Below, one piece after another: positions 1,393 to 62,350 of a stretch of 62,350 nt of DNA. Both the position numbers and the translations under genes were made by a program. Under the pieces are notes generated by a model that was not told the DNA's origin, did no database searches, and worked only from the letters and a program-made list of their open reading frames with translations. The stretch covers positions 1 to 62,350 of the forward strand of contig NZ_JADYUM010000017.1 of the NCBI RefSeq assembly GCF_021531815.1, in the 5' to 3' direction. The stretch's first letter is position 1. Each line of letters starts with the position of its first letter. The DNA comes from Pseudoflavonifractor phocaeensis (GTDB lineage Bacteria; Bacillota; Clostridia; Oscillospirales; Oscillospiraceae).

Positions 1393-1393
1393 C

Positions 1394-1585: not shown

Positions 1586-1677
1586 ACCATCACTCCTTAA
1601 AGCGATTATAGGCGATAAGGTCGGATTCGTCAATATTCAATCCTACTAAATGGTATAGTTGGGTTGGGTGAGATCAA

Positions 1678-1836: not shown

Positions 1837-1868
1837 GGCAAAACCACTCTAAAAACTCGGTTTTCCCC

Positions 1869-1897
1869 TTGACAACCCCGGTTTTCTGTACTAAAAT
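1869..1897 (+). promoter_or_regulatory. Sigma-A promoter of glyS
   Basis: TTGACA at 1869-1874 and TAAAAT at 1892-1897 are separated by 17 bases. This is a near-consensus vegetative promoter placed just before the T-box leader. Confidence 0.85.
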
Positions 1898-1903
1898 GGC
1901 CCA

Positions 1904-2136
1904 TAACAGCGTTGACAGAGAACAGTACCCCATGTCCGGGCGGCAGAGAGAGGGCGGTTGGTGCAAGCCCTACGACGGCATGGTGGGAAAGGCCCTCTGG
2001 AGCGCGGGCAGGAAATGGCCCGCCGGTCCCCGCCGTTACCGGGAAAGAGTGCGCATCAGCCAGATGCGAATTCAGGTGGAACCACGGACATTTTATGTTC
2101 GCCCTGAGCCGACACAGCCGGCTCAGGGCGTTTTTG
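1904..2136 (+). promoter_or_regulatory. T-box leader of glyS
   Basis: The leader has the hallmarks of a T-box. An AGTA motif lies near the 5' end, followed by a distal-loop region of the type seen in glycine T-boxes (GGTTGGTGCAA). GGC at 1991-1993, directly before CCTCTGGAG, is the likely Gly specifier. The 14-base T-box sequence at 2073-2086 (CAGGTGGAACCACG) pairs with uncharged tRNA ends. It is followed by an intrinsic terminator (stem 2100-2110 with 2120-2130, then a T run). Uncharged tRNA-Gly would favour the antiterminator and raise glyS expression. The specifier was assigned by eye. Confidence 0.9.
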
Positions 2137-2269
2137 TTTATAGCGTCTGAGGCCGTGAGCAGGGGAGATAACGCCGGAGGCGGAGAAGTTATCGACCCGG
2201 TCGCGAACGTGCCGAGGCGTGAATGAGTGTCTCTGAGCCAAAACTCAATTTGAAAAGGAGACAACCGAC

Positions 2270-3691
2270 ATGAAAAACACCGAAAAGACCATGGAAAAAA
2301 TCGTGACCCTGTGCAAGGGCCGCGGCTTCATCTTCTCCGGCTCCGAGATCTACGGCGGCCTGGCCAACACCTGGGACTACGGCCCTCTGGGTGTGGAGCT
2401 GAAGAACAACGTGAAGAAGGCCTGGTGGAAGAAGTTCGTCCAGGAGAACCCCTATAACGTGGGTCTGGACGCCGCCATCCTGATGAATCCCCAGGTCTGG
2501 GTAGCCTCCGGCCACGTGGGCGGCTTCTCCGACCCCCTGATGGACTGCAAGGAGTGCAAGGAGCGCTTCCGCGCCGACAAGGTCATCGAGGACTGGTGCC
2601 AGGAGAACAAGTTTGACCTGGGCCACAGCGTGGACGCCATGAGCCAGGCCCAGATGAAGGAGTTCATCGAGGAGCACGAGATCTGCTGCCCCACCTGCGG
2701 CAAGCACAACTGGACCGACATCCGCCAGTTCAATCTGATGTTCAAGACCTTCCAGGGGGTCACTGAGGACGCCAAGAACACCGTCTACCTGCGGCCCGAG
2801 ACCGCCCAGGGCATCTTCGTCAACTTCCAGAACGTCCAGCGCACCACCCGGAGAAAGCTGCCCTTCGGCGTATGCCAGGTGGGCAAGTCCTTCCGGAACG
2901 AGATCACCCCGGGCAACTTCACCTTCCGTACCCGCGAGTTCGAGCAGATGGAGCTGGAGTTCTTCTGCAAGCCCGGCACCGAGCTGGAGTGGTTCGCCTA
3001 CTGGAAGCAGTTCTGCCACCAGTGGCTGCTGAACCTGGGCATGAAGGACGAGAATTTACGCCTGCGCGACCATGAACCGGAAGAACTCTCTCATTACTCC
3101 AACGCCACCACCGACTTCGAGTTTGTCTTCCCCTTCGGCTGGGGCGAGCTGTGGGGCGTGGCCTCCCGCACCAACTTCGACCTGACCGCCCACCAGAAGA
3201 CCTCCGGCAAGGACATGTCCTACTTCGACCAGGAGGCCAACGAGCACTATATCCCCTACGTCATCGAGCCCTCCCTGGGCGCCGACCGCGTCACCCTGGC
3301 CTTCCTGGTGGATGCCTATGACGAGGAGGTGGTGGACGCCGAGAAGAACGACGTGCGCACCGTCCTGCGCCTGCACCCCGCCCTGGCTCCCTTCAAGTGC
3401 GCCGTGCTGCCCCTGTCCAAGAAGCTGGGCGACAAGGCCCGGGAGATCCAGACCGAGCTGTCCAAGTATTTCATGGTGGACTACGACGACGCCGGCTCCA
3501 TCGGCAAGCGCTACCGCCGCCAGGACGAGATCGGCACCCCCTACTGCATCACCGTGGACTTTGAGACCGTGGGCGACGACAAGACCCCCGCGGACAACGC
3601 CGTCACCATCCGGGATCGGGACACCATGGAGCAGGTCCGCGTACCTATCTCCGAGCTGAAGGCCTGGCTGGAGGAGAAGCTGGCTTACTAA
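2270..3691 (+). CDS. glyS: Glycine--tRNA ligase (single-chain, dimeric type)
   Basis: This 473-residue enzyme charges tRNA-Gly with glycine using ATP. It is the eukaryote/archaea-like single-chain class II form, not the bacterial alpha2beta2 GlyQ/GlyS. Class II motif 2 is visible around residue 200 (Gly-Lys-Ser-Phe-Arg-Asn-Glu-Ile) and motif 3 around 330-345 (Gly-Ala-Asp-Arg). An anticodon-binding domain covers about the last 100 residues. Cys pairs at about 84-87 and 143-146 (CKEC, CPTC) suggest a zinc site in an insertion. AAAAGGAG precedes the ATG. It is a single gene under the T-box at 1904-2136, and a strong terminator follows. Confidence 0.97.
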
Positions 3692-48095: not shown

Positions 48096-49361
48096 ATGAA
48101 GAAGATCCTTGCAATGGTCATGGCCATGGCCATGGTGCTGTCCCTGGCCGCCTGCGGCGGCGGAGACAAGTCCAGCGCTTCCGCCGGTTCTGCCGCCAGC
48201 GCCGGTTCCGCCGGGAGCGCCGCTTCCGCCAGCACCGCCGACGCCGCCGAATTCAAGGTGGGCGCCATCTATATCAACAGCAAGAACGACACCGCCGGTT
48301 ACACCTTTGCCCACCACAACGGCATCACCACCGCCATGAAGGAGCTGGGTATGGACCCCGCCACCCAGCTGGTCATCGTGGACGAGGTGCCTGAGGACAA
48401 GGAGCAGGTGCTGGCCGCCATCGACACCCTGGTGGGTGAGGGCGCCAACATCATCTTCGGCATCTCCTTCGGCTATATCGACGCCATGGCCGAGGCCGCC
48501 GAGGAGTACACCGACGTGGTGTTCTCCCACGCCACCGGCTATATGTCCAACGACACCAACTTCAACAACTACTTCGGCCGCGCCTACCAGGCCCGTTACC
48601 TGGCCGGCATCGCCGCCGGTCTGAAGTCCCTGGAGACCGGCAACAATAACATCGGCTATGTGGCCGCCTACGGCACCGAGTACGCCGAGACCTGCTCCGG
48701 CATCAACGGCTTTGCCCTGGGCGTCCAGTCCGTCAACCCCGACGCCAAGGTCTATGTGAAGAAACTGGGCGCCTGGGGCGACGAGGTCAACGAGTCCGCC
48801 TTTGCCAAGGAGCTGATCGACAGCTACAACTGCGGCGTCATCTCCCAGCACTGTGACTCCGCCCAGCCCCAGATCGCCGCTCAGGACGCCGGCGTGTTCG
48901 GCTGCGGCTACAACTCCGACATGACCCCCGACGCTCCCAACGCCCACCTGACCGCCGCCATCTGGAACTGGAACGTCTACTACCACACCGCCATTGAGGC
49001 CGCCATGAACTGCGGCGACGCCTCCAACTTCGTCACCGCCATGGGCGGCGGCGCTTACTACGGCGGCCTGAAGGAGGGCTTCGTGGACGTGTCCCCCCTG
49101 AACGAGGCCACTGTCGCCGCCGGCACCCAGGACGCCATCGACCAGGTCAAGGAGCTCATCGTCTCTGGCGACTGGGATGTGTTCACCGGCGTGAAGCTGC
49201 ACATCACCGTGGCTGACGGCGCGGCCACCGTGGAGAAGGCCGACGAGGCCCTGGTGGACAACACCGGCGCTGAGATCGTGGCCGCCGGCGGCCCCTCCGT
49301 GGAGGACGGCGTCATCACCGGCTCCATGAACTACTATGTGGAGGGCGTAGAGGAGGCCTAA
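48096..49361 (+). CDS. BMP family ABC transporter substrate-binding lipoprotein
   Basis: A 421-residue secreted lipoprotein. The signal peptide ends in the lipobox Leu-Ala-Ala-Cys with Cys20, followed by a Ser/Ala/Gly linker to about residue 48. The mature part is a periplasmic-binding-protein type I fold of the Bmp/PnrA/Med group (Val-Gly-Ala-Ile-Tyr-Ile near 50; Ile-Phe-Gly-Ile-Ser-Phe-Gly-Tyr near 120). Family members bind purine nucleosides. It begins the four-gene transport operon; a GC hairpin after it (49401-49430) could allow more binding protein than transporter to be made. Confidence 0.92.
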   Translation: MKKILAMVMAMAMVLSLAACGGGDKSSASAGSAASAGSAGSAASASTADAAEFKVGAIYINSKNDTAGYTFAHHNGITTAMKELGMDPATQLVIVDEVPEDKEQVLAAIDTLVGEGANIIFGISFGYIDAMAEAAEEYTDVVFSHATGYMSNDTNFNNYFGRAYQARYLAGIAAGLKSLETGNNNIGYVAAYGTEYAETCSGINGFALGVQSVNPDAKVYVKKLGAWGDEVNESAFAKELIDSYNCGVISQHCDSAQPQIAAQDAGVFGCGYNSDMTPDAPNAHLTAAIWNWNVYYHTAIEAAMNCGDASNFVTAMGGGAYYGGLKEGFVDVSPLNEATVAAGTQDAIDQVKELIVSGDWDVFTGVKLHITVADGAATVEKADEALVDNTGAEIVAAGGPSVEDGVITGSMNYYVEGVEEA

Positions 49362-49400
49362 GGCCCTGCCCCCTTATCCACGCGCGAGACCCGAGCATCA

Positions 49401-49440
49401 CCGGGCCGGCTGGTCATCCGGCCGGCCCGGTTTGGTTTTT
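49401..49440 (+). terminator. Intercistronic terminator or processing hairpin
   Basis: CCGGGCCGGC (49401-49410) pairs with GCCGGCCCGG (49421-49430), followed by TTTGGTTTTT. It lies between the binding-protein gene and the ABC ATPase gene. Confidence 0.7.
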
Positions 49441-49578
49441 GCTCCCTGGACCGGGCGGACCCGGCCCGGAGAGGAAGGACCAAACCGGAACACAGGGGCG
49501 GCCAATGGCCGCCCATTGCGCCATAGGCGGGCGGCGGCGACCGCCCCCACTGGATTTTGGAGAAAAGGAGAGAACGCC

Positions 49579-51192
49579 ATGCCAGAACAATACGCCATCG
49601 AGATGCGGGGCGTCACCAAGACCTTCGGCAGCGTGGTGGCCAACAAGGACGTGGACCTGACCCTGCGGCAGGGGGAGATCCTGGCTCTGCTGGGGGAGAA
49701 CGGTTCGGGCAAGACCACCCTGATGAACATGCTCTCGGGCATCTACAAGCCGGACAAGGGCGAGATCCGGGTGGACGGAAAAACCGTGTCCATCGACTCC
49801 CCGGAGGACGCTAAGAGGCTGGGCATCGGCATGGTCCACCAGCACTTCAAGCTGGTGGACGTGTTCTCCGCCGCCGACAACATCTGGATGGGCCGAGAGA
49901 AGGCGGGGCTGACCCTGAAGGGGGACCGCTATGCCGAGATCGGGGAGATGGTCAAAAAGTTCGGCTTTGACATCGACCCCAAGAAGAAGGTCCGGAACAT
50001 GGCCGTCTCTGAGAAGCAGACCCTGGAGATCATCAAGGTGCTGTATTACGGAGCCAAGGTCATCATCCTGGACGAGCCCACCGCGGTGCTCACCGTCCAG
50101 GAGATCGAAAAGCTCTTTGAGGTCCTACGCCGTATGAAGGAGAACGGCCACTCCATCATCATCATCACCCACAAGCTCAACGAGGTGATGGAGATCTCCG
50201 ACCGGGTGGCCATCCTCCGGAAAGGGGAGTATATCACCACCGTCAACACCGCCGATACCAACGAGCAGGAGCTCACCGAGTGGATGGTGGGCCGGAAGGT
50301 GGACCTGAACATCGACCGCCCGGTGGTGGAGAAGACCCGGCCCCTGCTGGAGATCCGGGACCTGACCATCAAAAACGACGAGGGCGCCGTAGCCATCGAC
50401 CATGTGAATTTCTACATCCGCGGGGGCGAGATCCTGGGCGTGGCGGGCATCGCCGGCTGCGGCCAGAAGGAGCTGTGCGAGGCCATCGCCGGCCTGCGGC
50501 CCATCCAGTCCGGCCTGATGATCCACAAGGGGGACAACATTGTGGGCCTGTCCCCCAAGGCCATCCTGGAGAAAGGCATCTCCATGTCCTTCATCCCCGA
50601 GGACCGGCTGGGCATGGGCCTGGCGCCCTCCCTGTCCATCACGGACAACATGATCCTGAAGAACTACTCCGAGGCCAGGGGCCCCTTCGTGGACCGGAAG
50701 GGCGGCCGGGAGGACGCCCAGCGGGTCATTGAGGAGCTGGAGGTGGTCACCCCCTCCACCGAGACCCCGGTGCGCCGCCTGTCCGGCGGCAACGTCCAGA
50801 AGGTGCTGCTGGGCCGGGAGATCAAGGCCGGCCCCAACGTCATCGTCACCGCCTACCCGGTGCGGGGCCTGGACATCAACTCCTCCTACGCCATTTACAA
50901 CATCCTCAACCAGCAGAAGGAGGCCGGGGTGGGCATCCTCTTCGTGGGCGAGGACCTGGACGTGATGCTGGCCCTGTGCGACAAGATCATGGTGCTGTGC
51001 CACGGCAAGGTCATGGGCGTGGTCCACGCCCACAAGACCTCCAAGGAGGAGCTGGGCCTGATGATGACCGGCGCCCTGGACCTGACCAACAAGTATGAGG
51101 ACAAGCCCGCCGGTTACGCCAAGGACACCAACATCACCGACGAGGAGCTCCGGGAGCTGGAGCAGCGGGAAGGGGAGGAGGAGCAGCCGTGA
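49579..51192 (+). CDS. Nucleoside-type ABC transporter, double ATP-binding subunit
   Basis: From ATG 49579 (AAAGGAG before it) the protein has 537 residues and two ABC domains. The first has Walker A Gly-Glu-Asn-Gly-Ser-Gly-Lys-Thr-Thr near 37-45 and Walker B Ile-Ile-Leu-Asp-Glu-Pro-Thr-Ala. The second has a degenerate Walker A (Gly-Ile-Ala-Gly-Cys-Gly-Gln-Lys-Glu) but an intact signature (Leu-Ser-Gly-Gly-Asn-Val-Gln-Lys), with Thr-Ala-Tyr-Pro-Val-Arg-Gly-Leu-Asp in place of Walker B. That is typical of NupO/RbsA-like proteins in BMP systems. It overlaps the next gene by four bases. Confidence 0.93.
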   Translation: MPEQYAIEMRGVTKTFGSVVANKDVDLTLRQGEILALLGENGSGKTTLMNMLSGIYKPDKGEIRVDGKTVSIDSPEDAKRLGIGMVHQHFKLVDVFSAADNIWMGREKAGLTLKGDRYAEIGEMVKKFGFDIDPKKKVRNMAVSEKQTLEIIKVLYYGAKVIILDEPTAVLTVQEIEKLFEVLRRMKENGHSIIIITHKLNEVMEISDRVAILRKGEYITTVNTADTNEQELTEWMVGRKVDLNIDRPVVEKTRPLLEIRDLTIKNDEGAVAIDHVNFYIRGGEILGVAGIAGCGQKELCEAIAGLRPIQSGLMIHKGDNIVGLSPKAILEKGISMSFIPEDRLGMGLAPSLSITDNMILKNYSEARGPFVDRKGGREDAQRVIEELEVVTPSTETPVRRLSGGNVQKVLLGREIKAGPNVIVTAYPVRGLDINSSYAIYNILNQQKEAGVGILFVGEDLDVMLALCDKIMVLCHGKVMGVVHAHKTSKEELGLMMTGALDLTNKYEDKPAGYAKDTNITDEELRELEQREGEEEQP

Positions 51193-52295
51193 GATTTCAT
51201 GTGGTAAAGCGGGACAACTGTCCCCTGTGGAAAAAGCTGTGCCTCTATGTGCTGGCGGTGGCCGCCGCCCTGGGGCTGGGCGCCCTGGTGCTGCTGGCCA
51301 TGGGGGTCGACCCGGCCGCCTACTACTACCGGATGTTCACCATGGGCATGGTGGGCAACAAGATCGCCTACAAGACCTTTGAGAACTACCTGAAGGTGTT
51401 CGTCCCCCTGGCCCTGACCTCGGTGGCCCTGTCCCTGGCCTTCAAGATGCGCTTCTGGAACATCGGCGGCGAGGGCCAGTTCATCCTGGGCGCCGTGGCC
51501 GCCGCCACCGTGGCCTTCAAGCTGGGGCCCTCCCTGCCCGGAGCGGTCACCCTGGTGCTCATGTGTCTGGCCGCCATGCTGTGCGCCGGGCTGTACGGCG
51601 CCTTTGTGGCGGTGCTGAAGGTGAAGTTCGGCACCAATGAGACGCTGATGACCCTGATGCTCAACTATATCGCCCTGTACTTTATCACCTTCCTGGGGGA
51701 GACCAAGGCGGACTGGAACTTCTATCTGGACCCCAAGTCGGTGCGTCCCATCTTCGCCAGCTTCGCCGATATCGTATCCTTCCCCAAGATCCCCTTGGTG
51801 GGCAAGTTCAGCCTGAACGTATGCGTTATCTTCACCCTGGTCATCGGGGTGCTGGTCTTTATCTACCTCAAGTACACCAAGCATGGCTATGAGATCGCCG
51901 TGGTGGGCGACAGCGCCGGCACCGCCCACTACGCGGGCATGAAGGTGAACACCATCGTGCTGCGCACCGTCTTTCTCTCCGCCTGCCTCATCGGTCTGGC
52001 CGCCGCCTTCAAGGTGGGCACCGCCGGCATCCTGTCCACCGCCATCACCGACGACGTGGGCTGGACGGGCATCATCGTGGCCTGGCTGTCCCAGATGAAC
52101 ACCGCCGTCATTTTCCTGGTGTCCGCCCTCATCTCCATGCTGCGCTACGGCTCCACCATCGCCGCGGCCACCTTCTCCCAGGTGGACTCCAGCTTTGCCA
52201 ACATGCTCCAGGGCGCCATTCTGTTCCTGGTGCTGGCCGCCGATTTCTATACCCGTTTCCGGGTGGTCCCTGTCCAGAAGGGAGGCAAAAACTGA
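51189..52295 (+). CDS. ABC transporter permease (BMP/nucleoside type, subunit 1)
   Basis: A 368-residue membrane protein starting at GTG 51189, overlapping the ATPase gene by four bases. It has about nine or ten hydrophobic segments and the branched-chain/monosaccharide permease pattern: Ile-Gly-Gly-Glu-Gly-Gln-Phe near 91-97, Gly-Thr-Asn-Glu-Thr-Leu-Met-Thr-Leu-Met-Leu-Asn-Tyr-Ile-Ala near 147-161, and Val-Val-Gly-Asp-Ser. It pairs with the following permease to form the pore. Confidence 0.92.
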   Translation: MRFHVVKRDNCPLWKKLCLYVLAVAAALGLGALVLLAMGVDPAAYYYRMFTMGMVGNKIAYKTFENYLKVFVPLALTSVALSLAFKMRFWNIGGEGQFILGAVAAATVAFKLGPSLPGAVTLVLMCLAAMLCAGLYGAFVAVLKVKFGTNETLMTLMLNYIALYFITFLGETKADWNFYLDPKSVRPIFASFADIVSFPKIPLVGKFSLNVCVIFTLVIGVLVFIYLKYTKHGYEIAVVGDSAGTAHYAGMKVNTIVLRTVFLSACLIGLAAAFKVGTAGILSTAITDDVGWTGIIVAWLSQMNTAVIFLVSALISMLRYGSTIAAATFSQVDSSFANMLQGAILFLVLAADFYTRFRVVPVQKGGKN

Positions 52296-53293
52296 TGGAA
52301 ATGAATCAATTAGGGGTGGTCACCACCTTTGTTCACAACATCGTGGTCTATAACATCCCCCTGCTCTACGGCACCGTGGGCGAGATCGTGGTGGAGAAAT
52401 CCGGCAGCCTGAACCTGGGCGTGGAGGGCATCATGGCCGTGGGCGCCATCTTCGGCTACATCATCGGCTGCTATACCAACAGCATGGCAGTGGGCATCCT
52501 CACCGCCTTCCTGTTCGGAGCCCTGTGCGGCCTGCTCTTCGCCGCCCTCACCGTCTCCCTCCAGGCCAACCAGAACATCACCGGCTTGACCCTGACCACC
52601 TTCGGCCTGGGCGTCTACTTCTTCGTGGGCAACGGCCTGAAAGCGGTGGCCTGGCCCGCCATGAACGACTACGCCAACATCAAAAACGGCTTTGCCGACC
52701 TGGCCATCCCCGGCCTGTCCCAAATCCCCGTCATCGGCCGGGGCCTGTTCAGCCACAATGTGATGGTCTATCTGGCCGTGGCGGTGGCCCTGGCCATGTG
52801 GTGGTATCTCAACCGCACCACCCCCGGCCTGCGGCTGCGGGCTGTGGGCGAAAACCCCGGCGCCGCCGACTCGGTGGGCATCAACGTGAAGCGGTATAAG
52901 TACGTCCACACCATGCTGGGCTGCGGCATCATGGGCATCGGCGGCTACTATATGGCCCTGAATATGTCCGGCTCCTTCAACAGCACCTGCTGGATCAACG
53001 GCTACGGCTGGATCGCGGTGGCCCTGGTCATCTTCGCCAACTGGAACCCCGCCCTGGCTATCCTGGGCACCTTCGTCTTCGGCTTCTTCAACACCCTGCG
53101 GGTGTCTGGCTCCAGCCTGGCCGCCGCCTTCCCCGGCACCCTGGGCTGGCTGGCCGCCATCCCCACCCAGGTGTATCAGGCGCTGCCCTTCGTCATCACT
53201 GCCGTGGTCCTGGTGGCCACTTCGGTGCGGAAACGGGAGGGCTCCGGCCTGCCCGCCTCCCTGGGCCTGAACTACTTCCGCGAGGAGCGGTAA
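52295..53293 (+). CDS. ABC transporter permease (BMP/nucleoside type, subunit 2)
   Basis: A 332-residue membrane protein starting at ATG 52295, sharing one base with the preceding stop (GGAGG before it). Features: Lys-Ser-Gly-Ser-Leu-Asn-Leu-Gly-Val-Glu-Gly-Ile near 34-45, Gln-Asn-Ile-Thr-Gly-Leu-Thr-Leu-Thr-Thr-Phe-Gly, and Ala-Val-Gly-Glu-Asn-Pro near 186, all typical of the partner permease. It is the last gene of the transporter operon and is followed by a strong terminator. Confidence 0.92.
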   Translation: MEMNQLGVVTTFVHNIVVYNIPLLYGTVGEIVVEKSGSLNLGVEGIMAVGAIFGYIIGCYTNSMAVGILTAFLFGALCGLLFAALTVSLQANQNITGLTLTTFGLGVYFFVGNGLKAVAWPAMNDYANIKNGFADLAIPGLSQIPVIGRGLFSHNVMVYLAVAVALAMWWYLNRTTPGLRLRAVGENPGAADSVGINVKRYKYVHTMLGCGIMGIGGYYMALNMSGSFNSTCWINGYGWIAVALVIFANWNPALAILGTFVFGFFNTLRVSGSSLAAAFPGTLGWLAAIPTQVYQALPFVITAVVLVATSVRKREGSGLPASLGLNYFREER

Positions 53294-53300
53294 CTTTAAG

Positions 53301-53340
53301 AGAAAAAATGCCTGACCGGACCCGGTCAGGCATTTTTTCT
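53301..53340 (+). terminator. Terminator of the ABC transporter operon
   Basis: A long near-perfect stem (about 53301-53318 with 53323-53340) with A run and T run in its arms. Confidence 0.9.
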
Positions 53341-53437
53341 GTCCGCGGCAAAGCCGCCGGTGCGGACTCCGGTCATAACCGCCCTGTTCCCCGCATAGGA
53401 TGTGGGTACAAGCATGCGCGGGACAAGGGGTGGTACC

Positions 53438-54598
53438 ATGAGGGGAGAGCGGCTGTATCTCACGGCCCTGCGCCGGGGAGTGGCCTTAGGGCTGGTGCTG
53501 ACGGCCCTGTGGGGCGGGAGCCGCCTGGTGGACCCGGCCTGGCTGAGGGACAGGCTGGAGGAGCCGGCCGGACTGCAGACAGCCCTGCTGGCCCGGCAGC
53601 TGGGCGGGGCGGAGGAGAAGCCCCGGGCCCTGGAGGGCTGGGGGCGGCTGATCTTGGCCCAGTCGGCCCCGTTGGCCGCCGGGGAGGAGGAGGTCCTCCG
53701 CCTGCGGGCGGAGGGGGGCGGGAGCCAGGAGCTGCCCGGAGAGGAGGCCCACGACGGGGACGGAGACGACCAGGAAGAGCCCGACCTCCAGCCCCAGGCC
53801 GAGGAGGACGGCGTCGTGGAGATGACCGCCCGGGGGAAGCAGGAGGGCAAGTACCTCTGGGGCGAGGGCGTGTACCTGTATAACCGTACTGACCTGGACC
53901 TGGATGCCTCGGTGCTGTCCCAGGGCGCCGTGGACGTGCCCCTGGGGGAGGGGCCCCAGATCCTCATCGTCCACACCCACGGCAGCGAGGCCTACTCCCA
54001 GACCGACGGGGACTTTTACGAGGAGAGCGACCCCTACCGGACCACCGACTGCACCCACAATGTGGTGAAGGTGGGGGAGGAGATAGCCACCGTGTTCCGG
54101 GCCCACGGCTTCCAGGTGGTCCACGACACCACTCTCTTTGATTACCCCGCCTACAACGGGGCCTATGACCGCTCCAAGGCGGCGGTGGAGCAGTGGCTGG
54201 AGCAGTACCCTACCATCCGGATTGTGCTGGACGTCCACCGGGACGCCCTGGTGGGGAGTAACGGAGAGGTCTACAAGCTGGTCAGCGAGGAGGCTGGGAA
54301 CAAGGTGGCCCAGGTGATGCTGGTGGTGGGCAGCAGCGGCTCCGGGGCGGAGCACCCCCGCTGGAAGGACAATCTGGCCTTCGCGGTGAAGCTCCAGCAG
54401 GGGCTGGTCCGGGGGTACAGCAGTCTGGCCCGGCCCATCGTCCTGCGCAACAGCCGCTATAACCAGCAGCTTTCCCCCGGCTCCCTCCTGGTGGAGGTAG
54501 GGGGCCACGGAAATACCCTGTCTGAGGCCATCGCCGGGGCGCGGCTGTGGGCGGACAACGTGGCCCGGACCCTGCTGGCCATGAAGGAAGAGCAATAA
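53438..54598 (+). CDS. spoIIP: Stage II sporulation protein P
   Basis: From ATG 53438 (AAGGGG before it) the product has 386 residues. An N-terminal hydrophobic anchor (about 11-28) is followed by an acidic linker (about 85-130) and an amidase domain with Leu-Ile-Val-His-Thr-His-Gly-Ser-Glu-Ala-Tyr near 178-188, Val-His-Arg-Asp-Ala-Leu near 267, and Asn-Gln-Gln-Leu-Ser-Pro-Gly-Ser-Leu-Leu-Val-Glu-Val-Gly near 345. SpoIIP is the peptidoglycan amidase/endopeptidase that works with SpoIID and SpoIIM during engulfment. It shows that the organism has sporulation genes. No gpr gene is next to it. Confidence 0.94.
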   Translation: MRGERLYLTALRRGVALGLVLTALWGGSRLVDPAWLRDRLEEPAGLQTALLARQLGGAEEKPRALEGWGRLILAQSAPLAAGEEEVLRLRAEGGGSQELPGEEAHDGDGDDQEEPDLQPQAEEDGVVEMTARGKQEGKYLWGEGVYLYNRTDLDLDASVLSQGAVDVPLGEGPQILIVHTHGSEAYSQTDGDFYEESDPYRTTDCTHNVVKVGEEIATVFRAHGFQVVHDTTLFDYPAYNGAYDRSKAAVEQWLEQYPTIRIVLDVHRDALVGSNGEVYKLVSEEAGNKVAQVMLVVGSSGSGAEHPRWKDNLAFAVKLQQGLVRGYSSLARPIVLRNSRYNQQLSPGSLLVEVGGHGNTLSEAIAGARLWADNVARTLLAMKEEQ

Positions 54599-55457: not shown

Positions 55458-55632
55458 GCTCCCGCCTCCTTTTCCCTTTACAGTGTAACCCAGCCGCCGG
55501 GTTTTCGCAAGAAGGAAGCGGACCCCATACAGCGGCGGGAGGGCCCGAGCCGCCATTCTAAGAAATTCGTAAATTAAAATCTAGTAATATCAATAGGGAA
55601 AGTGCTATACTGTGCCGAGAATGTGGCATATG

Positions 55633-55672
55633 AAAGCGGTGGTCATCTTCATCTGATGACCACCGCTTTTTC
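55633..55672. terminator. Terminator at the edge of the accessory region
   Basis: A 15-base perfect stem (55633-55647 with 55655-55669), 7-base loop, A run before and T run after. It would stop transcripts of the minus cassette. Confidence 0.8.
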
Positions 55673-55692: not shown

Positions 55693-55791
55693 TCAGCCGA
55701 GGATCAGAGTGGCCCAGCCCTCCGCGCCGGCGGCCAGGACCAACACCGCAGCCCAGGTCAGCGCCGCTTTGATGTATTCGCTTCTCTTCAT
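55693..55791 (-). CDS. Small membrane peptide, 32 aa
   Basis: The frame begins Met-Lys-Arg-Ser-Glu-Tyr-Ile-Lys and then has one hydrophobic helix (about residues 9-24, Ala/Leu/Val/Trp-rich) followed by Glu-Gly-Trp-Ala-Thr-Leu-Ile-Leu-Gly. AGGGG lies nine bases before the ATG. It is the last frame of the minus-strand cassette, 35 bases after the amidotransferase gene. Size and topology resemble small phage membrane peptides; function unknown. Confidence 0.55.
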   Translation of the reverse strand: MKRSEYIKAALTWAAVLVLAAGAEGWATLILG

Positions 55792-55826
55792 ATTTTTACA
55801 CCCCTTCATGGAATTATTCGATCATG

Positions 55827-56465
55827 TCAGTCCGAAAAACTACACTGTACCATGGAATTATTGCGGCTTGCGCTGCGTGGCGTCCGCTGCTCCCGGAATG
55901 TCCCGTTGGAGAACAGCAGGCCCCGGTCATTGATGAACTCCCCCACCGTGGCGATGGTCCCGTCACGGTCCAGGAAGGCCCACCGGCTATTTGTAGTGCG
56001 CCGGATGGCCTCCAGGACCGCCGGGTCATCCAGGTCCTCCCGGCTGCGCAGGAAGAACCGCAGAAACTCCGTGATATAGTGGGCGGTGTCGCTGTACTCC
56101 CGGTCCGTCCAATCGCTGGTCAGCCGGATCACGCCGTTATGAGCCACGCCCACAGGACAGGACACGTCCAATAATTTACAGTCCTCCATGTGAGAAGTCA
56201 GCGGGAATGGGTGGGTCATCTCGGGCCCCACGCCCGCCTGGGTGGAGATGCGGCAATGGTAAACCACCGGGTCGGCGGCGGTGAATTGCTCGCGCCGGAC
56301 CGCGCGGATGAAGTCATCCCACACCATGAACCCCTTATAGATCTCCACATGGTCCCCACGGACCGACATATAGCCGGCGCCGTGGGGGTTGTTGGTGAAC
56401 ATGCGGCGAAGCTGTGCCTCGCTGGGCTGCCGGATCCCCGCCGCAGACGCGCAGATGATACACAT
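55827..56465 (-). CDS. Class II glutamine amidotransferase (Ntn hydrolase)
   Basis: From ATG 56465 (GGAGG before it) the protein has 212 residues. Cys2 directly after Met is the expected N-terminal nucleophile. The class II pattern continues with Asn-Pro-His-Gly-Ala-Gly-Tyr (26-32), His-Cys-Arg-Ile-Ser-Thr-Gln-Ala-Gly (70-78), His-Pro-Phe (85-87) and Val-Ala-His-Asn-Gly-Val-Ile (107-113). It should release ammonia from glutamine, or cut gamma-glutamyl bonds. It has no fused synthase domain. The amidoligase gene two places upstream could be the acceptor partner. C-terminal 60 residues are not recognised. Confidence 0.85.
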   Translation of the reverse strand: MCIICASAAGIRQPSEAQLRRMFTNNPHGAGYMSVRGDHVEIYKGFMVWDDFIRAVRREQFTAADPVVYHCRISTQAGVGPEMTHPFPLTSHMEDCKLLDVSCPVGVAHNGVIRLTSDWTDREYSDTAHYITEFLRFFLRSREDLDDPAVLEAIRRTTNSRWAFLDRDGTIATVGEFINDRGLLFSNGTFREQRTPRSASRNNSMVQCSFSD

Positions 56466-56467
56466 GG

Positions 56468-57007
56468 TCAGCCCTCCTCCCCGTCCGGGTCCAGGGCGTC
56501 GAAAGAGCCCCAACATCCGATTTCGTCCGACGTGAACCCGTCCAGCCTCTGGAGCACTGCATACAGTCCGCGGTAATACTTGTTGACGATCCGGAAGAAG
56601 CGCTTTTCGTGCTCCTCACCCTCGATCTGGTACTGCGCTGAGCGCAGGAAGGAGATCACGCCATAGACGGCCCGCCGCAGGTCCTTCACGGCGTCCGGCT
56701 GCTCCAGGGTATAGCCACGGCGCATCAGCTGGAGGCCCGTAGCCTTGGCGGCCTCAAACTCCGTCAGATAGTCGGCGCTGTCCTGCTCCCGCTGGTGGTC
56801 GTGGTACTGCTCCGCCACAGCCGCCGCGTTGATGGCATAGACCCGCTGGAGGTCCCGCCGCACGTCCTCCGCCTCATAGGGGCGATGCTCTCTCCTGTTC
56901 CACAGGTACATGACCGGCTCTCGGTAGTAGTTTTTCGTCTCGATGACGGCGGCCAGGAATCCGGCGGCCTTGGTATACTCCTTCTTGTCGATCACAAAGC
57001 TACTCAT
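56468..57007 (-). CDS. Unknown helical protein between amidoligase and amidotransferase
   Basis: A 179-residue, strongly charged, mostly helical protein with many Tyr, Arg and Glu residues and no membrane segment. Segments such as Arg-Asp-Leu-Gln-Arg-Val-Tyr-Ala-Ile-Asn-Ala-Ala-Ala-Val-Ala-Glu (about 51-66) and Phe-Phe-Arg-Ile-Val-Asn-Lys-Tyr-Tyr-Arg-Gly-Leu (about 136-147) suggest helix bundles. GGAGGT precedes the ATG. Its stop is two bases before the amidotransferase start, so the two are co-translated. It could be the peptide acceptor, an adaptor or a regulator; I recognise no family. Confidence 0.75.
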   Translation of the reverse strand: MSSFVIDKKEYTKAAGFLAAVIETKNYYREPVMYLWNRREHRPYEAEDVRRDLQRVYAINAAAVAEQYHDHQREQDSADYLTEFEAAKATGLQLMRRGYTLEQPDAVKDLRRAVYGVISFLRSAQYQIEGEEHEKRFFRIVNKYYRGLYAVLQRLDGFTSDEIGCWGSFDALDPDGEEG

Positions 57008-57132
57008 AATTTTTTACCTCCGTTACTGTAATTTTTTATTTACTTGCTGTTTAGGTTTGTGTTTCTACGTTGCTTCTTGTAGTTTTCTGTCACACCGACC
57101 CACATATTTTTCCATGGGGCGGTGTAATTTTT

Positions 57133-58086
57133 TTAGATCAGCTCCACCCGCTGGACGGTGGTCCGGATCTTCTCCAGTTCCGCCGCGGTGATGGTTCCGG
57201 CGTCCTTGCAGTGGGATTTGAGGCGGTCGAACACATACTGATTGCAGCCGGCGAAAATCTTTGTCAGGTCATCGCACTCGGACCAGGAAAGAGTCTTGAC
57301 CGCGTCGCACAGGTGAAACACACATTCCATTGTGTTACGGAAGCAGGCGTAATTTTTTTGGCCGCCCACCAGCCGGATCTCAATGCGTCCGGTGTTCCAA
57401 TGGCCCAGGTTGAAGCTGACGCCGTGGTTGGAGGAGCAGGACCCCAGGTCCAGGGACTTGCAGTAGTCCATGCTGTGAGCCATGCGGCTACAGTAGCCGG
57501 TCCGGTTCCGGTCCCGGTGGAACAGAGCACAGCAAAGGTCATAGTGCTTGTTGACGATGTAGTACAGCTTGCGGACGGCCTCCGTCTGGGCCTTGTCGCT
57601 CCGGCCAAACAGGCCGCGGGAGATATTGACGTGCATGCCGCAGTTGGGGCCACAGGTGATCCCGAAGGCGGGGAAATAGGTGTTATACATCAGCTTAAAA
57701 TTGCTGTAGTTGTTGCGGATGAACTCTCGGGTCATGATCTGGGTGATGCACTCCGCGCTGGTATCGCCGGACAGGCTGCCGTCACGCTGGAGCTTGAACA
57801 GGTCCGCCGGGAAGTGGGGGAAGATGATCTTGTTGAGCACTTCCGCCAGGACCTGGGGGTTATGGATACCGCTGCACTCCGTCTCGATCTCCAGCCCGAA
57901 GCCCTTCAAGGGCTTTCCGTCTGCGCGCTGGAAGCTGGCGTCAAGTGAAATATAACGGTCGCTGGTGTAATATTTGTTGGACTGGAATCCCTCGAAGGCG
58001 TAATTCTCATTGCGGAAGTTGCCGCCGTGGTAGCCGGCGATCTGGCTGATGGACGCCTGCTTGGTCTCTTTTGCTTCTTTTCTCAT
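57133..58086 (-). CDS. Amidoligase (glutamine synthetase-like COOH-NH2 ligase)
   Basis: A 317-residue protein with the Amidoligase_2 pattern: Gly-Phe-Gly-Leu-Glu-Ile-Glu-Thr-Glu (62-70) supplies metal/ATP-binding acids, Arg-Asp-Gly-Ser (101-104) with Ala-Glu (111-112), Gly-Met-His-Val-Asn-Ile-Ser (150-156), and Ile-Glu-Ile-Arg-Leu (235-239). Members are predicted to join a carboxylate to an amine with ATP, making peptide or isopeptide bonds. AAGGGG precedes the ATG. It is the first gene of the minus cassette. The family call rests on motif spacing read by eye; substrate unknown. Confidence 0.82.
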   Translation of the reverse strand: MRKEAKETKQASISQIAGYHGGNFRNENYAFEGFQSNKYYTSDRYISLDASFQRADGKPLKGFGLEIETECSGIHNPQVLAEVLNKIIFPHFPADLFKLQRDGSLSGDTSAECITQIMTREFIRNNYSNFKLMYNTYFPAFGITCGPNCGMHVNISRGLFGRSDKAQTEAVRKLYYIVNKHYDLCCALFHRDRNRTGYCSRMAHSMDYCKSLDLGSCSSNHGVSFNLGHWNTGRIEIRLVGGQKNYACFRNTMECVFHLCDAVKTLSWSECDDLTKIFAGCNQYVFDRLKSHCKDAGTITAAELEKIRTTVQRVELI

Positions 58087-58208: not shown

Positions 58209-58275
58209 GCCCGGGTGGTTTGGATTTTTACAGCGGGACTTGGAATTATTTCCCGCCCTGTGCCTAAATCATAAA

Positions 58276-58399
58276 CCACTTAATACGTGTACGTCAATAT
58301 CGCATGTTAAACAAATTATTAAGTGGCTTTTTGTGCACAATAACCACTTATTAAGTGCGCAATATCACCACTTGACAAGTGGGCTGTTTTTGGTACACT
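58276..58399 (+). promoter_or_regulatory. Promoter and repeated CCACTT/AAGTGG operators
   Basis: Dyads built on CCACTT and AAGTGG occur at 58276-58289 (one good half), 58316-58325 (half), 58344-58358 (CCACTTATTAAGTGC) and 58368-58382 (CCACTTGACAAGTGG). The last covers the -35 TTGACA (58372-58377); TACACT (58394-58399) is the -10 at 16 bases. A small dimeric repressor binding cooperatively here is expected, most simply the ribbon-helix-helix protein encoded just downstream. Confidence 0.72.
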
Positions 58400-58425: not shown

Positions 58426-58968
58426 ATGCCAAGAAAGTACACTGACGCAAGGAAGGAAAACAACAGGAAATGGGACGCTGAGAACCTGGACAGAATGTCG
58501 CTTGCGCTCCCAAAGGGGCAGAAAGAGCGCATACAGGCCGCCGCCGCCGCATCAGGAGAGAAAAGCGTTAATTCCTGGATCTCCAAGGCCATCGAGGCAA
58601 GGCTTACCGGAGCGCAGGCCCAGGACCAGGCACAGCAGCAGCCAGCGCAGCCGGACGGGTTGACGGTGACCATCAGGCCGGAGGACCTGGACAAGATGCA
58701 CGCTCATCTGGAGCTTTACGGGCTGGACCTGGAAAAGTTTATCCATCGGGCCATCAATACCCAGATAAAGAACGATCTCAACGCAAAAACGCTTGGAATT
58801 CCGATGGAGCGAGAAGCTGACGAAAACAAAAGGATGATTCAAAAGGGGGACTGCCTGGACCTCACCCAGGCCGAAGGCTTTACCGTGGATCAGCTTGAGC
58901 GCGCGGCGGATCAGTGCGGCCAGAGCGTCAATGAGTGGGTCCTGGAGGCCATCAGGGAAAAGATTTGA
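58426..58968 (+). CDS. Ribbon-helix-helix regulator with two such modules
   Basis: From ATG 58426 (GAGGGG before it) the protein has 180 residues. A basic N-terminus leads to Met-Ser-Leu-Ala-Leu-Pro-Lys-Gly, then helices with Ser-Val-Asn-Ser-Trp-Ile-Ser-Lys-Ala-Ile-Glu (about 46-56), an Arc/MetJ-like module. A Gln/Ala linker follows. A second, similar ending near the C-terminus reads Ser-Val-Asn-Glu-Trp-Val-Leu-Glu-Ala-Ile (about 168-177). The repeated Ser-Val-Asn-x-Trp motif suggests internal duplication. It is divergent from the amidoligase cassette, with four operator-like sites between, so it probably controls itself and perhaps the cassette. Confidence 0.78.
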   Translation: MPRKYTDARKENNRKWDAENLDRMSLALPKGQKERIQAAAAASGEKSVNSWISKAIEARLTGAQAQDQAQQQPAQPDGLTVTIRPEDLDKMHAHLELYGLDLEKFIHRAINTQIKNDLNAKTLGIPMEREADENKRMIQKGDCLDLTQAEGFTVDQLERAADQCGQSVNEWVLEAIREKI

Positions 58969-59047: not shown

Positions 59048-59417
59048 GGTATATATATACTACGGTACTATATAGGCCTACGGTAGTACTACGGTACTAC
59101 GCTATAACTACGGTACTACGGTTCTACCGTATACACTCATAGCCTACAAAAAATTTATATACTACTTCTCTTCTACGGTGGCGGTATTAGTACAATCACG
59201 GTATATTACATCCACGGTACTACCACGGTATGATACTACCACGGTACTTCCGTGGGCTATGACAGTGTAGGCCTACACGGTATAATCAAGAGACGGTAGA
59301 AAAACGTAAAAAACACGGGGACTGGTGTAATAAAAAACGCGGATAATACAGTGAGTATTACACGATTTGTTGTAATTTTGTAGGCCTATAGATCCTCGGT
59401 ACTACTGTAGGCCTACA
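59048..59417. repeat. Iterated ACGGTACTAC / TAGGCCTA tract
   Basis: The 370 bases are non-coding and built of short repeated words. ACGGTACTAC or near matches occur at 59062, 59091, 59110, 59214 and 59397, with further CGGTA/TACCG words at 59081, 59119, 59127, 59175, 59182, 59199, 59226, 59242, 59279 and 59294. TAGGCCTA occurs four times (59073, 59268, 59381, 59408), twice inside larger palindromes (GTGTAGGCCTACAC at 59265-59278; TGTAGGCCTACA at 59406-59417). AT-rich runs (GTATATATATAC) are interspersed. The design resembles an iteron origin or a packaging/partition site. Confidence 0.75.
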
Positions 59418-59499: not shown

Positions 59500-60030
59500 C
59501 TGTGTCATTTATGGGGAAATATGGGGCAATTACGGGCTGCCGGGCGGAATGCGATAAAGGGTCTCGGCGGGCGCGGGGTGGGGTGGCACTTCCCGGATTT
59601 CTACAAGGGACCATGTAACGATCCCCCCCGGGGGTGGCGGAAAAAGGGGCGGGCGGTGAAAGGACGGGTGTATGGCTGTATCCCCACGTCCTCTCAACCT
59701 GTCCCTGCGCCTCTCAACACGACCTCTTCCCCGCCGCCATGTGGGGGCAGCGGAAAAACAGGGGGCCTGGTCAGAAAATCCTTGAAGTAATTTTTTGTAA
59801 TACACAGTAAATGTTAGTAAATAGCTGTAAACACGAAAAATTCCCACTTGAAATCCGCGAAAAAGTTGTTTATTCTCAGCTTGGAAGATAGCATCTTCCC
59901 TCCTCTTTCCGCTCCGGTTTTGCCATTTTCCCGGGGCGGTTCAACGAATGAGCCGGAGACGGCATGACATACAGCAAGGCTTTGGCAAAGGATTTTTAGC
60001 AGGGTGAACACCAGGAAGGGAGGTGTCTTC
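59500..60030. other. Spacer before the small-terminase gene
   Basis: About 530 bases without a supported gene. A frame from 59521 to 59790 exists but has no ribosome site and an unstructured, Pro/Gly/Arg-rich translation. The right part is AT-rich with repeated GTAA/TGTAA words (59785-59830) and may hold the promoter of the phage gene block. Confidence 0.45.
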
Positions 60031-60534
60031 ATGGCGGGAAAGAGAGGCAACCCGAATTTCAAGGCGAAGCGCGGCGAGGCGGGCTACACAGAGCGTAACA
60101 CCGGTCCTGCCACGAAGGCGGCGATTGAGGCATGCGCCACCTTCCCCACGGCTGAGAAATTCACCGAAGCGGCAGACCGGTACTTCGACGAGTGCGACGA
60201 GACGGGCGTGCTGTACGGGGAGGCCGGCCTCTGTCTGGGGCTGACCAAGTACAACGAGAAGGGCCGGACGGTGACCCTCAAGGCGCTGCGCAACTGGTAC
60301 GACGGGGAGAGCTGCGCCTGGCTCCAGGACGCGGTGCAGACGGCCTATCTCCGCATCCAGTCGCAGATCGAGAGCGACCCCCGGTATCAGGAGAAGGGCG
60401 GCATGGCCACCCGGGGAATCTTCCTCCAGAAGCAGATGCGCTTTGGCGGCTACCAGGACAAGATCGAGGCCAAGACGGACGCCACGGTGAAGATCATCCA
60501 CGGGTCCACCATGGACGAGAGCGACTTCCAGTGA
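60031..60534 (+). CDS. Phage small-terminase-like DNA-packaging protein
   Basis: From ATG 60031 (GGGAGGT before it) the protein has 167 residues. The N-terminus is basic (Ala-Gly-Lys-Arg-Gly-Asn-Pro-Asn-Phe), followed by a helical DNA-binding-type region with Leu-Gly-Leu-Thr-Lys-Tyr-Asn and Leu-Arg-Asn-Trp-Tyr-Asp-Gly, and near the C-terminus Ile-Phe-Leu-Gln-Lys-Gln-Met-Arg-Phe-Gly-Gly-Tyr. That ending is common in small terminases of Firmicute phages. It should recognise the phage packaging site. The expected large terminase and portal do not follow. Confidence 0.7.
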   Translation: MAGKRGNPNFKAKRGEAGYTERNTGPATKAAIEACATFPTAEKFTEAADRYFDECDETGVLYGEAGLCLGLTKYNEKGRTVTLKALRNWYDGESCAWLQDAVQTAYLRIQSQIESDPRYQEKGGMATRGIFLQKQMRFGGYQDKIEAKTDATVKIIHGSTMDESDFQ

Positions 60535-60544
60535 GGTGGGGGGC

Positions 60545-60766
60545 ATGGAACAGGTTTTCATGGGGCTTGTGCTCCTGCTGCTGGTGCTGGACCTGGCGGT
60601 GACGGCGGGGCTGTACTGCCGGATGTGCCTGCCAAGCCGGGAGGAGCGCAACGAGCGGGCGGTGGAGCGTGCCATGGAGCAGGAGGCCGCCGACCCCATC
60701 GACGAAGGATTTGAGAACATCATGCGGTTTTCCGTCAACGGAAAGACCGGATTTGAGACGGAGTAG
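60545..60766 (+). CDS. Small single-pass phage membrane protein, 73 aa
   Basis: From ATG 60545 (GGTGGGG upstream). One hydrophobic helix at about 5-24 is followed by a charged cytoplasmic tail with Arg/Glu-rich segments and an end Phe-Glu-Thr-Glu. The start is ten bases after the small-terminase stop, so the genes are co-expressed. No family recognised. Confidence 0.6.
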   Translation: MEQVFMGLVLLLLVLDLAVTAGLYCRMCLPSREERNERAVERAMEQEAADPIDEGFENIMRFSVNGKTGFETE

Positions 60767-60787
60767 CGGGAAAGGGGCGTGAGGACC

Positions 60788-61237
60788 ATGGCGGTGAACA
60801 GGACGGTGCAGGCCATCTTCGACAAGGCCATGCACCTCATGGACGCCCAGAACGAGAGCACCGGAAACACAGATACCAGCGACACCCGGGAGTACAAGGT
60901 CAGGACCATCGGCATCCTGAACAACCTGCTGGACCTGGTGTACCCGGCCAGCGACACCTTCGCCATCGGCGGGGACGGGAAGCGGCCGGCGCTGGATGAC
61001 ATCACAAGTTTTGAGGACGAGCTGGACCTGGACGCCCGCATTCTGCGGGACGTGCTGCCAAACGGGCTGGCGGCAAAGCTGCTCAGCGAGGAGAACCCAA
61101 GCCTTGCCGACTACTTCCAGCAGTGCTTTGAGCAGAGTCTGGCGGAGGCAAGGGCGCGCATACCGGCGTGCTTTGAGAGCATCGAGGACGGCCTGCCATA
61201 CGGCGGGATCGAGTACGGAGAATTCGGGTCCTGGTAA
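60788..61237 (+). CDS. Phage head-region protein, function unknown
   Basis: From ATG 60788 (AGGGG upstream; GTG 60779 is an alternative) the product has 149 residues. It is acidic and helical with Ile-Phe-Asp-Lys-Ala-Met-His-Leu-Met-Asp near 11-20, Thr-Ile-Gly-Ile-Leu-Asn-Asn-Leu-Leu-Asp near 40-49, and a C-terminal Ile-Glu-Tyr-Gly-Glu-Phe. Proteins of this look lie between portal and scaffold genes in some Firmicute phages; that is a memory of family style, not a verified match. Confidence 0.6.
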   Translation: MAVNRTVQAIFDKAMHLMDAQNESTGNTDTSDTREYKVRTIGILNNLLDLVYPASDTFAIGGDGKRPALDDITSFEDELDLDARILRDVLPNGLAAKLLSEENPSLADYFQQCFEQSLAEARARIPACFESIEDGLPYGGIEYGEFGSW

Positions 61238-61320: not shown

Positions 61321-61974
61321 ATGGACGAGAACACCAGCCTGACCACGGAGCAGGAGTCCGCAGACCAGCAGGACGCTTTTCTGGAGAGTTGGGAGGACGA
61401 GGACGCCGAGGCCACTGAGCCCGCAGACCAGCAGGACCAGAAGCCGGAGGACAAAGCGGACCGGGGGTCGGACGCGGAAGCGAGCCAGCCCGCAGCCGGG
61501 ACCGAACACGCTGGCGGAAACGCGGAAGCGGACAAGGCCGAAACCAAGGCCGATGGCGCCGAAACCGTGAACGCCAAGCCGGAGGAGCAGAATGCTCCCC
61601 ATACGTGGAACGTCAAGCACATGGGCCAGGAGCGGACCCTGGGCGTTGCCGATGTGACGCCGGAGCTGCTTCAGAAGGGCCTGGATTACGACCGCATCCG
61701 CGGGAAGTATGACGAGGCCAAGCCTGTCATGGAGATGTTCAGCCAGTTCGCCAGGAACGCGGGCATGAGCATCCCAGAGTACGCCAGATTCATCCGCTCC
61801 GAGGCCAAGCGGGCCGGGGGCATGAGCGAGGCGGAGGCGAAGCGGGCAGTTGAGCTTGAGGACCGCGAGGCCGCCGTATCCGCCAGGGAGGCGGAGCAGC
61901 AGGCAGAGGCCGAGGCGAAGAAGGACGGGGAGGACCGGGTACGGGACGACCTTTCCCAGTTCGCCAAGGCATAA
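61321..61974 (+). CDS. Phage scaffold-like protein
   Basis: A 217-residue protein. The first 95 residues are acidic and low-complexity (Glu/Asp/Gln/Ala). Then comes a compact segment with His-Thr-Trp-Asn-Val-Lys-His-Met-Gly and Pro-Glu-Leu-Leu-Gln-Lys-Gly-Leu-Asp-Tyr-Asp-Arg (about 97-125), then a Glu/Ala/Arg coiled coil to the end. This matches the style of capsid scaffolding proteins. AAGGAG precedes the ATG. It ends abruptly after Gln-Phe-Ala-Lys-Ala, so a C-terminal capsid-binding part may be missing or short. Confidence 0.65.
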   Translation: MDENTSLTTEQESADQQDAFLESWEDEDAEATEPADQQDQKPEDKADRGSDAEASQPAAGTEHAGGNAEADKAETKADGAETVNAKPEEQNAPHTWNVKHMGQERTLGVADVTPELLQKGLDYDRIRGKYDEAKPVMEMFSQFARNAGMSIPEYARFIRSEAKRAGGMSEAEAKRAVELEDREAAVSAREAEQQAEAEAKKDGEDRVRDDLSQFAKA

Positions 61975-61982: not shown

Positions 61983-62350
61983 ATGCCCAGCTGGGTACGT
62001 AACTTGGAACAGAGTCGAGCGGACAAGGGGCTTCCAACGTTAAGTGGAATCGGCGCTAGCAGTTCCAGCAGCTCCAGCAAGTCGAGCGTCTCTGGAAGCT
62101 CAAGCAACTCCAGTAAATCCAGCAGCTCCAGCAGCTCCGGCAGCTCCAGCAGTGGCCGTGTGTCACAGGATATTAAGACGCCGTCCTCTGGAAGCTCTGG
62201 AGGTTCCAGCAGCTCCAGCAGTGGCCGTGTGTCACAGGATATTAAGACGCCGTCCTCTGGAAGCTCTGGAGGTTCCAGCAGCTCCAGCAGTGGCCGTGTG
62301 TCACAGGATATTAAGACGCCGTCCTCTGGAAGCTCTGGAGGTTCCAGCAG
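61983..62350 (+). CDS. Ser/Gly-rich repeat protein, truncated by window end
   Basis: The frame opens at ATG 61983, eight bases after the scaffold-like stop, with a weak ribosome site, and runs off the window. The first 25 residues are ordinary (Trp-Val-Arg-Asn-Leu-Glu-Gln-Ser-Arg-Ala-Asp-Lys). Then Ser dominates, with Lys and Gly spacers. From 62154 there is a 23-residue unit (Gly-Arg-Val-Ser-Gln-Asp-Ile-Lys-Thr-Pro plus a Ser/Gly run) encoded by identical 69-base repeats. It is likely a phage structural or virion-surface protein. Start uncertain. Confidence 0.55.
   Translation, partial: MPSWVRNLEQSRADKGLPTLSGIGASSSSSSSKSSVSGSSSNSSKSSSSSSSGSSSSGRVSQDIKTPSSGSSGGSSSSSSGRVSQDIKTPSSGSSGGSSSSSSGRVSQDIKTPSSGSSGGSS
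62154..62350 (+). repeat. 69-base tandem repeat, three copies (last cut)
   Basis: Units at 62154-62222, 62223-62291 and 62292-62350 (incomplete) are identical at nucleotide level and preserve the reading frame. The copy number beyond the window is unknown; such repeats expand and contract easily. Confidence 0.93.

Follow-up and report, generated by a model that had tools for sequence, protein, structure and literature searches.

GatCAB and GatDE, which act on tRNA-bound Glu/Asp, and MurT-GatD, which acts on lipid II, carry out ATP-dependent carboxylate amidation with the ligase and the glutaminase as separate proteins; the catalytic domains of GatB and GatE have a fold like that of glutamine synthetase (GS), and the respective glutaminases have amidase, asparaginase-like and class I folds. 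Here we describe a prophage-borne pair of genes, encoding a predicted GS-fold amidoligase (AL) and a class II glutamine amidotransferase (GAT), in a 62,350-nucleotide stretch of DNA from Pseudoflavonifractor phocaeensis. This stretch, referred to as the window, is the whole of contig NZ_JADYUM010000017.1 (C8); C15 is another contig of the same genome, and L numbers denote the loci compared, mostly viral contigs. We favor, with modest confidence, the reading that AL and GAT are the two subunits of one glutamine-dependent amide synthase, that a temperate phage carried the genes as accessory cargo, and that an envelope carboxylate is the likeliest target.

Among phages, the closest described systems are the podovirus "peptidoglycan modification cassettes" of RIO-1, PSA-HP1, phiEco32, LUZ24, PaP3, tf and PA11, for which a role in superinfection is presumed (PMC5498523). 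Other papers describe comparable cassettes in the gene table of UFV-P2 (PMC3890496), in tf (PMC3517423) and in TC6 (PMC6209634), an amidoligase and a GATase in the OM43 phages MEP401 and MEP402 and in over 30 metagenomic genomes (PMC10580990), and amidoligases with a cyclotransferase in Clostridium clostridioforme prophages (PMC11318856). Such cassettes are presumed to modify the host wall (Iyer et al. 2009, as cited in PMC10580990). They recur in many phages, and in the literature surveyed the wall role is a prediction: what it offers are predictions and annotations, and no study that assayed an amidoligase with its GATase from a phage was found there.

The podovirus cassettes and the one described here have an amidoligase and a glutamine amidotransferase in common. 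In contrast, the podovirus cassettes add a second amidoligase, an ATP-grasp enzyme and a gamma-glutamyl cyclotransferase, and sit amid transcription, DNA metabolism and replication genes, according to PMC5498523, whereas the AL-GAT group has a cyclotransferase in one of 50 records and its pair lies divergent from packaging genes. Closer in layout are MEP401, MEP402 and Podoviridae ctgrD200, in which a long gene of the AL PHROG directly precedes GAT on one strand (PHROG 16683 matches MEP402 gp06 with 6.8e-16 and ctgrD200 with 3.4e-26). Their GATs are 23-28% identical to that of the window, and they differ in having longer proteins (518-548 amino acids (aa) and about 290-305 aa); an extra N-terminal part with conserved Cys residues is seen in an alignment (A7) of ctgrD200 and seven viral contigs. 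Christensenellales phage IMGVR 15666929 (PV036454.1, human faeces) likewise carries a gene annotated "amidoligase enzyme" and, after it, a GAT that shares 55% identity with ours; it differs in that its AL is 22% identical, three hypothetical genes lie between, and the middle protein of our cassette (MID) has no match. Amidoligase/GAT cassettes in podoviruses are therefore already known; new are the stripped-down, prophage-borne form and an AL subfamily below the Pfam threshold. Found in dozens of viral contigs, apparently without a cyclotransferase, the two-gene form offers a simple setting for a substrate search.

Organization of the cassette

The cassette consists of four minus-strand frames, listed in order of transcription:

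57133..58086, minus strand: AL, predicted GS-fold amidoligase, 317 aa, first cassette gene (PHROG, profile comparison, AlphaFold2 model)
56468..57007, minus strand: MID, predicted helical protein, 179 aa, with "MSSFVI.K.EY" (structure model; not a core member)
55827..56465, minus strand: GAT, probable class II glutamine amidotransferase, 212 aa, Met-Cys start (conserved residues, hhalign)
55693..55791, minus strand: 32-aa hydrophobic membrane peptide MKRSEYIKAALTWAAVLVLAAGAEGWATLILG, last cassette frame (frame reading)

All four lie where a preliminary description of this DNA had placed them and are unbroken, with a purine-rich, Shine-Dalgarno-like stretch 5' of each start. The intervening gaps measure 125, 2 and 35 bases, the second being the two-base spacing between the end of MID and the start of GAT that had been pointed out earlier.

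The amidoligase

The preliminary description had read AL as an Amidoligase_2-type ligase with all motif groups. A hidden Markov model search of 57133-58086 did not confirm the family by itself, since AL gave no Pfam match at E<=1 and did not reach the cut-off of PF12224 (Amidoligase_2), but profile-profile comparison linked the AL profile to proteins of its own genome that pass this cut-off (98.3%, E 1.7e-14) and to longer phage amidoligases (99.5%). PF12224 was matched by two of 29 AL homologues at E<=0.1, and NCBIfam gave no match for AL. Among PHROGs, AL matched 2443, "amidoligase enzyme" (1.1e-6), and 16683 (3.4e-15). The AlphaFold2 model is confident (predicted local distance difference test (pLDDT) 90.2), and its nearest solved structures are glutamine synthetases. 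Across 37 sequences, seven residues never vary (E66, E68, D102, E112, H152, E236 and R238); we take them to be those of the ExE, DGS..E, GxHxN and ExR motifs. Since E66, E68 and R238 are among them, the acidic residues at 66-70 and the Arg238 expected of the ATP site are in place. The amidoligase identity and its motif groups are thereby upheld: by its predicted fold, AL is a member of the GS-fold amidoligase (COOH-NH2 ligase) superfamily, in a subfamily that sits below the Pfam threshold and that profile comparison relates to Amidoligase_2.

Four further amidoligases in the same genome pass the Pfam Amidoligase_2 cut-off (C11:279579, C33:17887, C22:178357 and C42:51163; L001-L004). They are 65-93% identical to the first of them and 22-24% to AL, and their N-termini are Cys-rich.

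The amidotransferase

In GAT, residues C2, R72, T75, H85 and G111 do not vary among 24 sequences, at least 90% of which also share N110 and D126; a set of 27 gave the same result. These residues resemble the Cys1/Arg/Thr/His/Asn-Gly/Asp set of glucosamine-6-phosphate synthase. A check of 55827-56465 against class II GATase models was positive in part: GAT by itself matched nothing in Pfam, nor did a profile search against the PDB give a match, but its profile, built without two rows shared in a first comparison, matched 12 phage GATases with hhalign (100%, E 1.4e-60), and five of these 12 in turn hit Pfam GATase_4 (E<=0.01; best 3.2e-6). Together with the Met-Cys start, these comparisons agree with the earlier call of a Cys nucleophile and indicate that GAT is a class II (N-terminal nucleophile, Ntn) glutamine amidotransferase with an intact N-terminal Cys site.

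Pairing of AL and GAT across viral loci

Co-occurrence was surveyed in 54 loci on 54 viral contigs selected by GAT and in 19 loci on 18 contigs selected by AL, several contigs being in both sets. AL was found in 52 of the 54 GAT-selected loci, in 50 of them upstream on the same strand and at most 3,317 bases away; in the other two, AL lies on the other strand 5 kb off (L086) or between two GATs (L097). Two of the 52 matches are weak (L077, 1.2e-5; L103, 5e-4, the matched piece of L103 being without a PHROG match). The AL profiles were partly derived from GAT-selected loci; AL was still found in 35 of the 37 loci that contributed no row. As for the two misses, L070 has 242 bp ahead of GAT, and in L067 a gene downstream of GAT is an amidoligase by PHROG 2443 (1.9e-85). 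Conversely, GAT was found in 13 of the 19 AL-selected loci; in five misses (L031, L033, L037, L040 and L041) no more than 793 bp follow AL, and in the sixth, L018, 2,949 bp follow it without a GAT. Because some contigs are near copies (e.g. L011/L029/L030, L079/L080 and L081/L083), the independent cases are fewer than these counts. The prediction that ligase and amidotransferase travel together is borne out: the pairing of AL with GAT is real and conserved.

According to a crude gene call, the number of small frames that separate the two ranges from 0 to 8. With three seeds confirmed by PHROGs, terL was found in 26 of the 54 GAT-selected loci, in 24 of these on the opposite strand and upstream of AL, a divergent layout that matches that of AL and a terS-like gene in the window. 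Three of the 54 loci yielded an integrase.

The cyclotransferase search covered 47 of the 54 GAT-selected contigs and three phages, many of them fragments, and its positive control was detected in nine of 14 genomes. The single PF06094 (gamma-glutamyl cyclotransferase) match among these 50 records falls in the oddly ordered L067, and none occurs among the window proteins scanned with Pfam. PF14395 (second amidoligase) matched none of the 50 records, and the control genomes likewise gave no match. The cyclotransferase result bears on a possible, though unlikely, alternative in which the amine that AL joins into isopeptide or gamma-glutamyl conjugates is not ammonia but an amino acid, a polyamine or a protein lysine, and in which GAT trims or edits the linkage, as proposed for the multi-gene podovirus cassettes. 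The scarcity of the cyclotransferase argues against it, and so does the retention in GAT of the standard glutamine-site residues. In its favor, the structures that match AL include, at ranks like those of GS, two other GS-fold enzymes, glutamate-cysteine ligase and gamma-glutamylmethylamide synthetase. Furthermore, published descriptions report amidoligases with ATP-grasp and/or gamma-glutamyl cyclotransferase genes in LUZ24-like phages (PMC3890496) and in C. clostridioforme prophages (PMC11318856), and place the amidotransferase among degradation genes (PMC5498523).

One protein cluster recurs close to AL-GAT in seven of the loci compared (L027, L028, L032, L059, L079, L081 and L082); its L032 member is a DUF3846 protein (PF12957, 1.7e-13).

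Proposed function

The analysis shows the identities of AL and GAT, their intact catalytic motifs, the predicted fold of AL, the pairing and the prophage location. For a GS-type ligase beside an intact class II glutaminase, the simplest interpretation is an amide synthase that depends on glutamine and would act in the manner of GatCAB, GatDE or MurT-GatD. GAT would hydrolyze glutamine at its N-terminal Cys to release ammonia, and AL, through its GS active site, would phosphorylate a carboxylate with ATP, the ammonia then displacing phosphate to leave an amide; the two would act as a complex. The likeliest target, at a guess, is a carboxylate of the host envelope, with the peptidoglycan stem peptide first, and its amidation would alter the wall of the lysogen vis-à-vis competing phages. 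In its most specific form, which we consider quite unlikely, the pair would be a minimal split amidotransferase, a GS-fold ligase fed with ammonia by a stand-alone class II (Ntn) glutaminase, with which temperate phages amidate the wall or another envelope polymer of the lysogen and exclude competing phages; if true, both the enzyme pairing and this way of lysogenic conversion would be new.

Several points weigh against an amide synthase acting on the envelope. The Foldseek template modeling scores of AL against GS are low (0.3-0.4). Loci with a short AL often have unrelated small genes between AL and GAT, so that co-translation or a fixed complex is conjectural. GAT could instead be a free glutaminase or an amide hydrolase, and since the element that carries them is cryptic (see below), both genes may persist here as relics. 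Moreover, no cell-wall gene was noticed beside the pair, although no search was aimed at one, while antirestriction-type (ArdC domain) and uncharacterised genes were found near it.

The ArdC-domain genes give some substance to another explanation, in which the product of AL and GAT, be it a modified nucleotide, a phage DNA base or a small metabolite, is directed against restriction or other host defence. They lie beside the pair in some loci, as a three-member cluster (L032, L066 and L073, the L073 member matching ArdcN with 7.1e-4, under the Pfam cut-off) and next to AL in L084 (4.8e-25). However, PADLOC models match none of AL, MID and GAT, and no base-hypermodification gene was noticed near the pair, no model search having been aimed at one; we regard this explanation as improbable.

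The middle protein

MID is not a core member of the cassette. It was absent from all 54 GAT-selected viral loci, and neither AL nor GAT occurs in the examined stretches of 14 MID-selected viral loci; AL was also absent from the 11 whole records searched among these 14, a search without a positive control. The suggestion that MID serves the whole system as acceptor or adaptor therefore finds no support. The helical character ascribed to it agrees with a confidently predicted helical bundle (pLDDT 88.6), for which no convincing relative was found among solved structures. Indirectly, MID seems to go with AL-GAT in close relatives of this phage: among the matches listed, seven of 23 MID homologues (the window's own aside) share the size of their longest contig with an AL or GAT homologue, four of these contigs being long (9,399, 14,659, 23,819 and 34,721 bases) and three short (1,430, 2,060 and 2,064), the latter perhaps by chance.

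On a viral contig without an AL match (L047:9398-10733), MID has, by eye, a DnaJ-like frame on one side and on the other a frame similar to the ribbon-helix-helix (RHH) regulator of the window, which hints at a context of its own.

The prophage element

The features of the element outside the cassette are as follows:

55555..55568, plus strand: attL candidate ATTCTAAGAAATTC, 14-bp direct repeat that recurs exactly at C15:6101-6114, immediately beyond the integrase gene
55632..55670, plus strand: terminator-like 16-pair hairpin followed by a T-rich stretch, near the left end of the element (hairpin search)
60004..60534, plus strand: terS-like packaging protein (PHROG 606, 7.8e-4, weak; 62% to L133)
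60536..60766, plus strand: small hydrophobic protein (position as a small frame in L134)
60779..61237, plus strand: conserved phage protein (47-70% to L133-L136)
61321..61974, plus strand: acidic protein, judged scaffold-like only by eye (42-48% to L133-L136; 33% to L045)
61983..62350, plus strand: first part of a Ser/Gly-rich repeat protein, cut off by the contig end and apparently continued at C15:2-1378 (repeat-unit match)

The repeat ATTCTAAGAAATTC occurs once in the window; the comparison covered 401 x 1600 bases, for which we estimate an expectation of about 0.002 matches of this kind. The attL and attR candidates, the former 124 bp from the end of the cassette peptide gene, enclose 6,796 + 6,114 = 12,910 bp plus a repeat gap, over two contigs. 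At the contig break lies a 69-bp tandem unit of the Ser/Gly-rich repeat; the start of C15 is the one other place in the genome where this unit is found, there with a single mismatch. C15 (30,373 bp) carries the apparent remainder of the repeat protein (2-1378), a 667-aa frame (1390-3393), three short or reverse frames without a PHROG match and a tyrosine integrase (4831-5943; PHROG 1, 1.3e-55), past which the frames appear chromosomal by eye (thiolase-like and peptidyl-tRNA-hydrolase-like). The linkage of C8 and C15 is supported by relative L126, in which the counterparts of C15 9977-11057 and C8 54642-55487 lie 110 bp apart, with the gene order rearranged; the stretches of the other four relatives match C8 only.

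Phage morphogenesis genes had been proposed beside the cassette. These are the weakly matched terS-like gene, whose relatives in viral contigs L133-L136 are 37-62% identical, and neighboring genes that bring the range to 37-70%. L134 has relatives of the terS-like, 60779 and 61321 genes followed by terL and portal genes, its terL lying at about the place of the Ser/Gly-rich repeat. No terL or portal was found among the element frames scanned. Where L134 has terL and portal, the element has the 667-aa frame, the short or reverse frames and the integrase, so that a block of late genes is gone or hidden in the repeat gap. An integrase and a terS-like gene, with terL and portal not seen, are also traits of satellites resembling phage-inducible chromosomal islands (PICI); as the late-type genes keep the order of L134 up to the start of its terL, the element fits a prophage remnant better than a PICI-like satellite. 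It is a cryptic prophage rather than an intact phage, with the cassette as cargo at the attL end.

Given this state, the cassette itself could be a non-functional remnant of a decaying prophage, which we consider rather unlikely. The frames without a PHROG match and the integrase in place of terL and portal point that way, as does a related phage's terL (from L042), which found no match in the genome in a search without a positive control. AL, MID and GAT are nevertheless uninterrupted, with starts preceded by ribosome-site-like stretches, and the catalytic residues of AL and GAT are conserved.

Proposed regulation of the cassette, and neighboring sequences

Two features lie upstream of AL:

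58268..58399, both strands: divergent promoter-like sites and palindromes, candidate operators (site search)
58426..58968, plus strand: RHH regulator, Arc/HicB type, 180 aa (PHROG 13890, 2.6e-24)

The regulator said to face the cassette thus proves to be of the RHH type and divergent from AL, and the cassette would be read from a promoter under its control. Promoter-like sites point toward AL (minus strand, 58297-58268) and toward the regulator (plus strand, 58372-58399); such sites are little above chance, as the region holds five against 2.6 +/- 1.6 in shuffles. Between the genes lie two exact ACTTNNNAAGT palindromes (58346 and 58370) and two imperfect ones (58274 and 58310). Apart from the exact copies, the window has no ACTT..AAGT pair with a spacer of 2-6 bases, and when the letters between the genes were shuffled 5,000 times, two of the shuffles reached two palindromes of this type, the motif having been picked after it was seen. 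Palindromes of this kind are absent from L134 and L135, two loci with related regulators. Terminator-like sites number seven in the region, against 5.4 expected by shuffling.

Upstream of the terS-like gene, 59060-59415 contains four TAGGCCTA palindromes, a type that occurs nowhere else in the window (none of 100 shuffles reaches four), and four CTACGGTA copies (one of 100 shuffles), possibly a packaging site or a regulator array. Beside the element, 48096-54598 holds what we take to be a BMP-type substrate-binding protein and ATP-binding cassette (ABC) transporter frames, followed by a 398-aa protein whose HTHGSEAY motif, to our eye, recalls SpoIIP.

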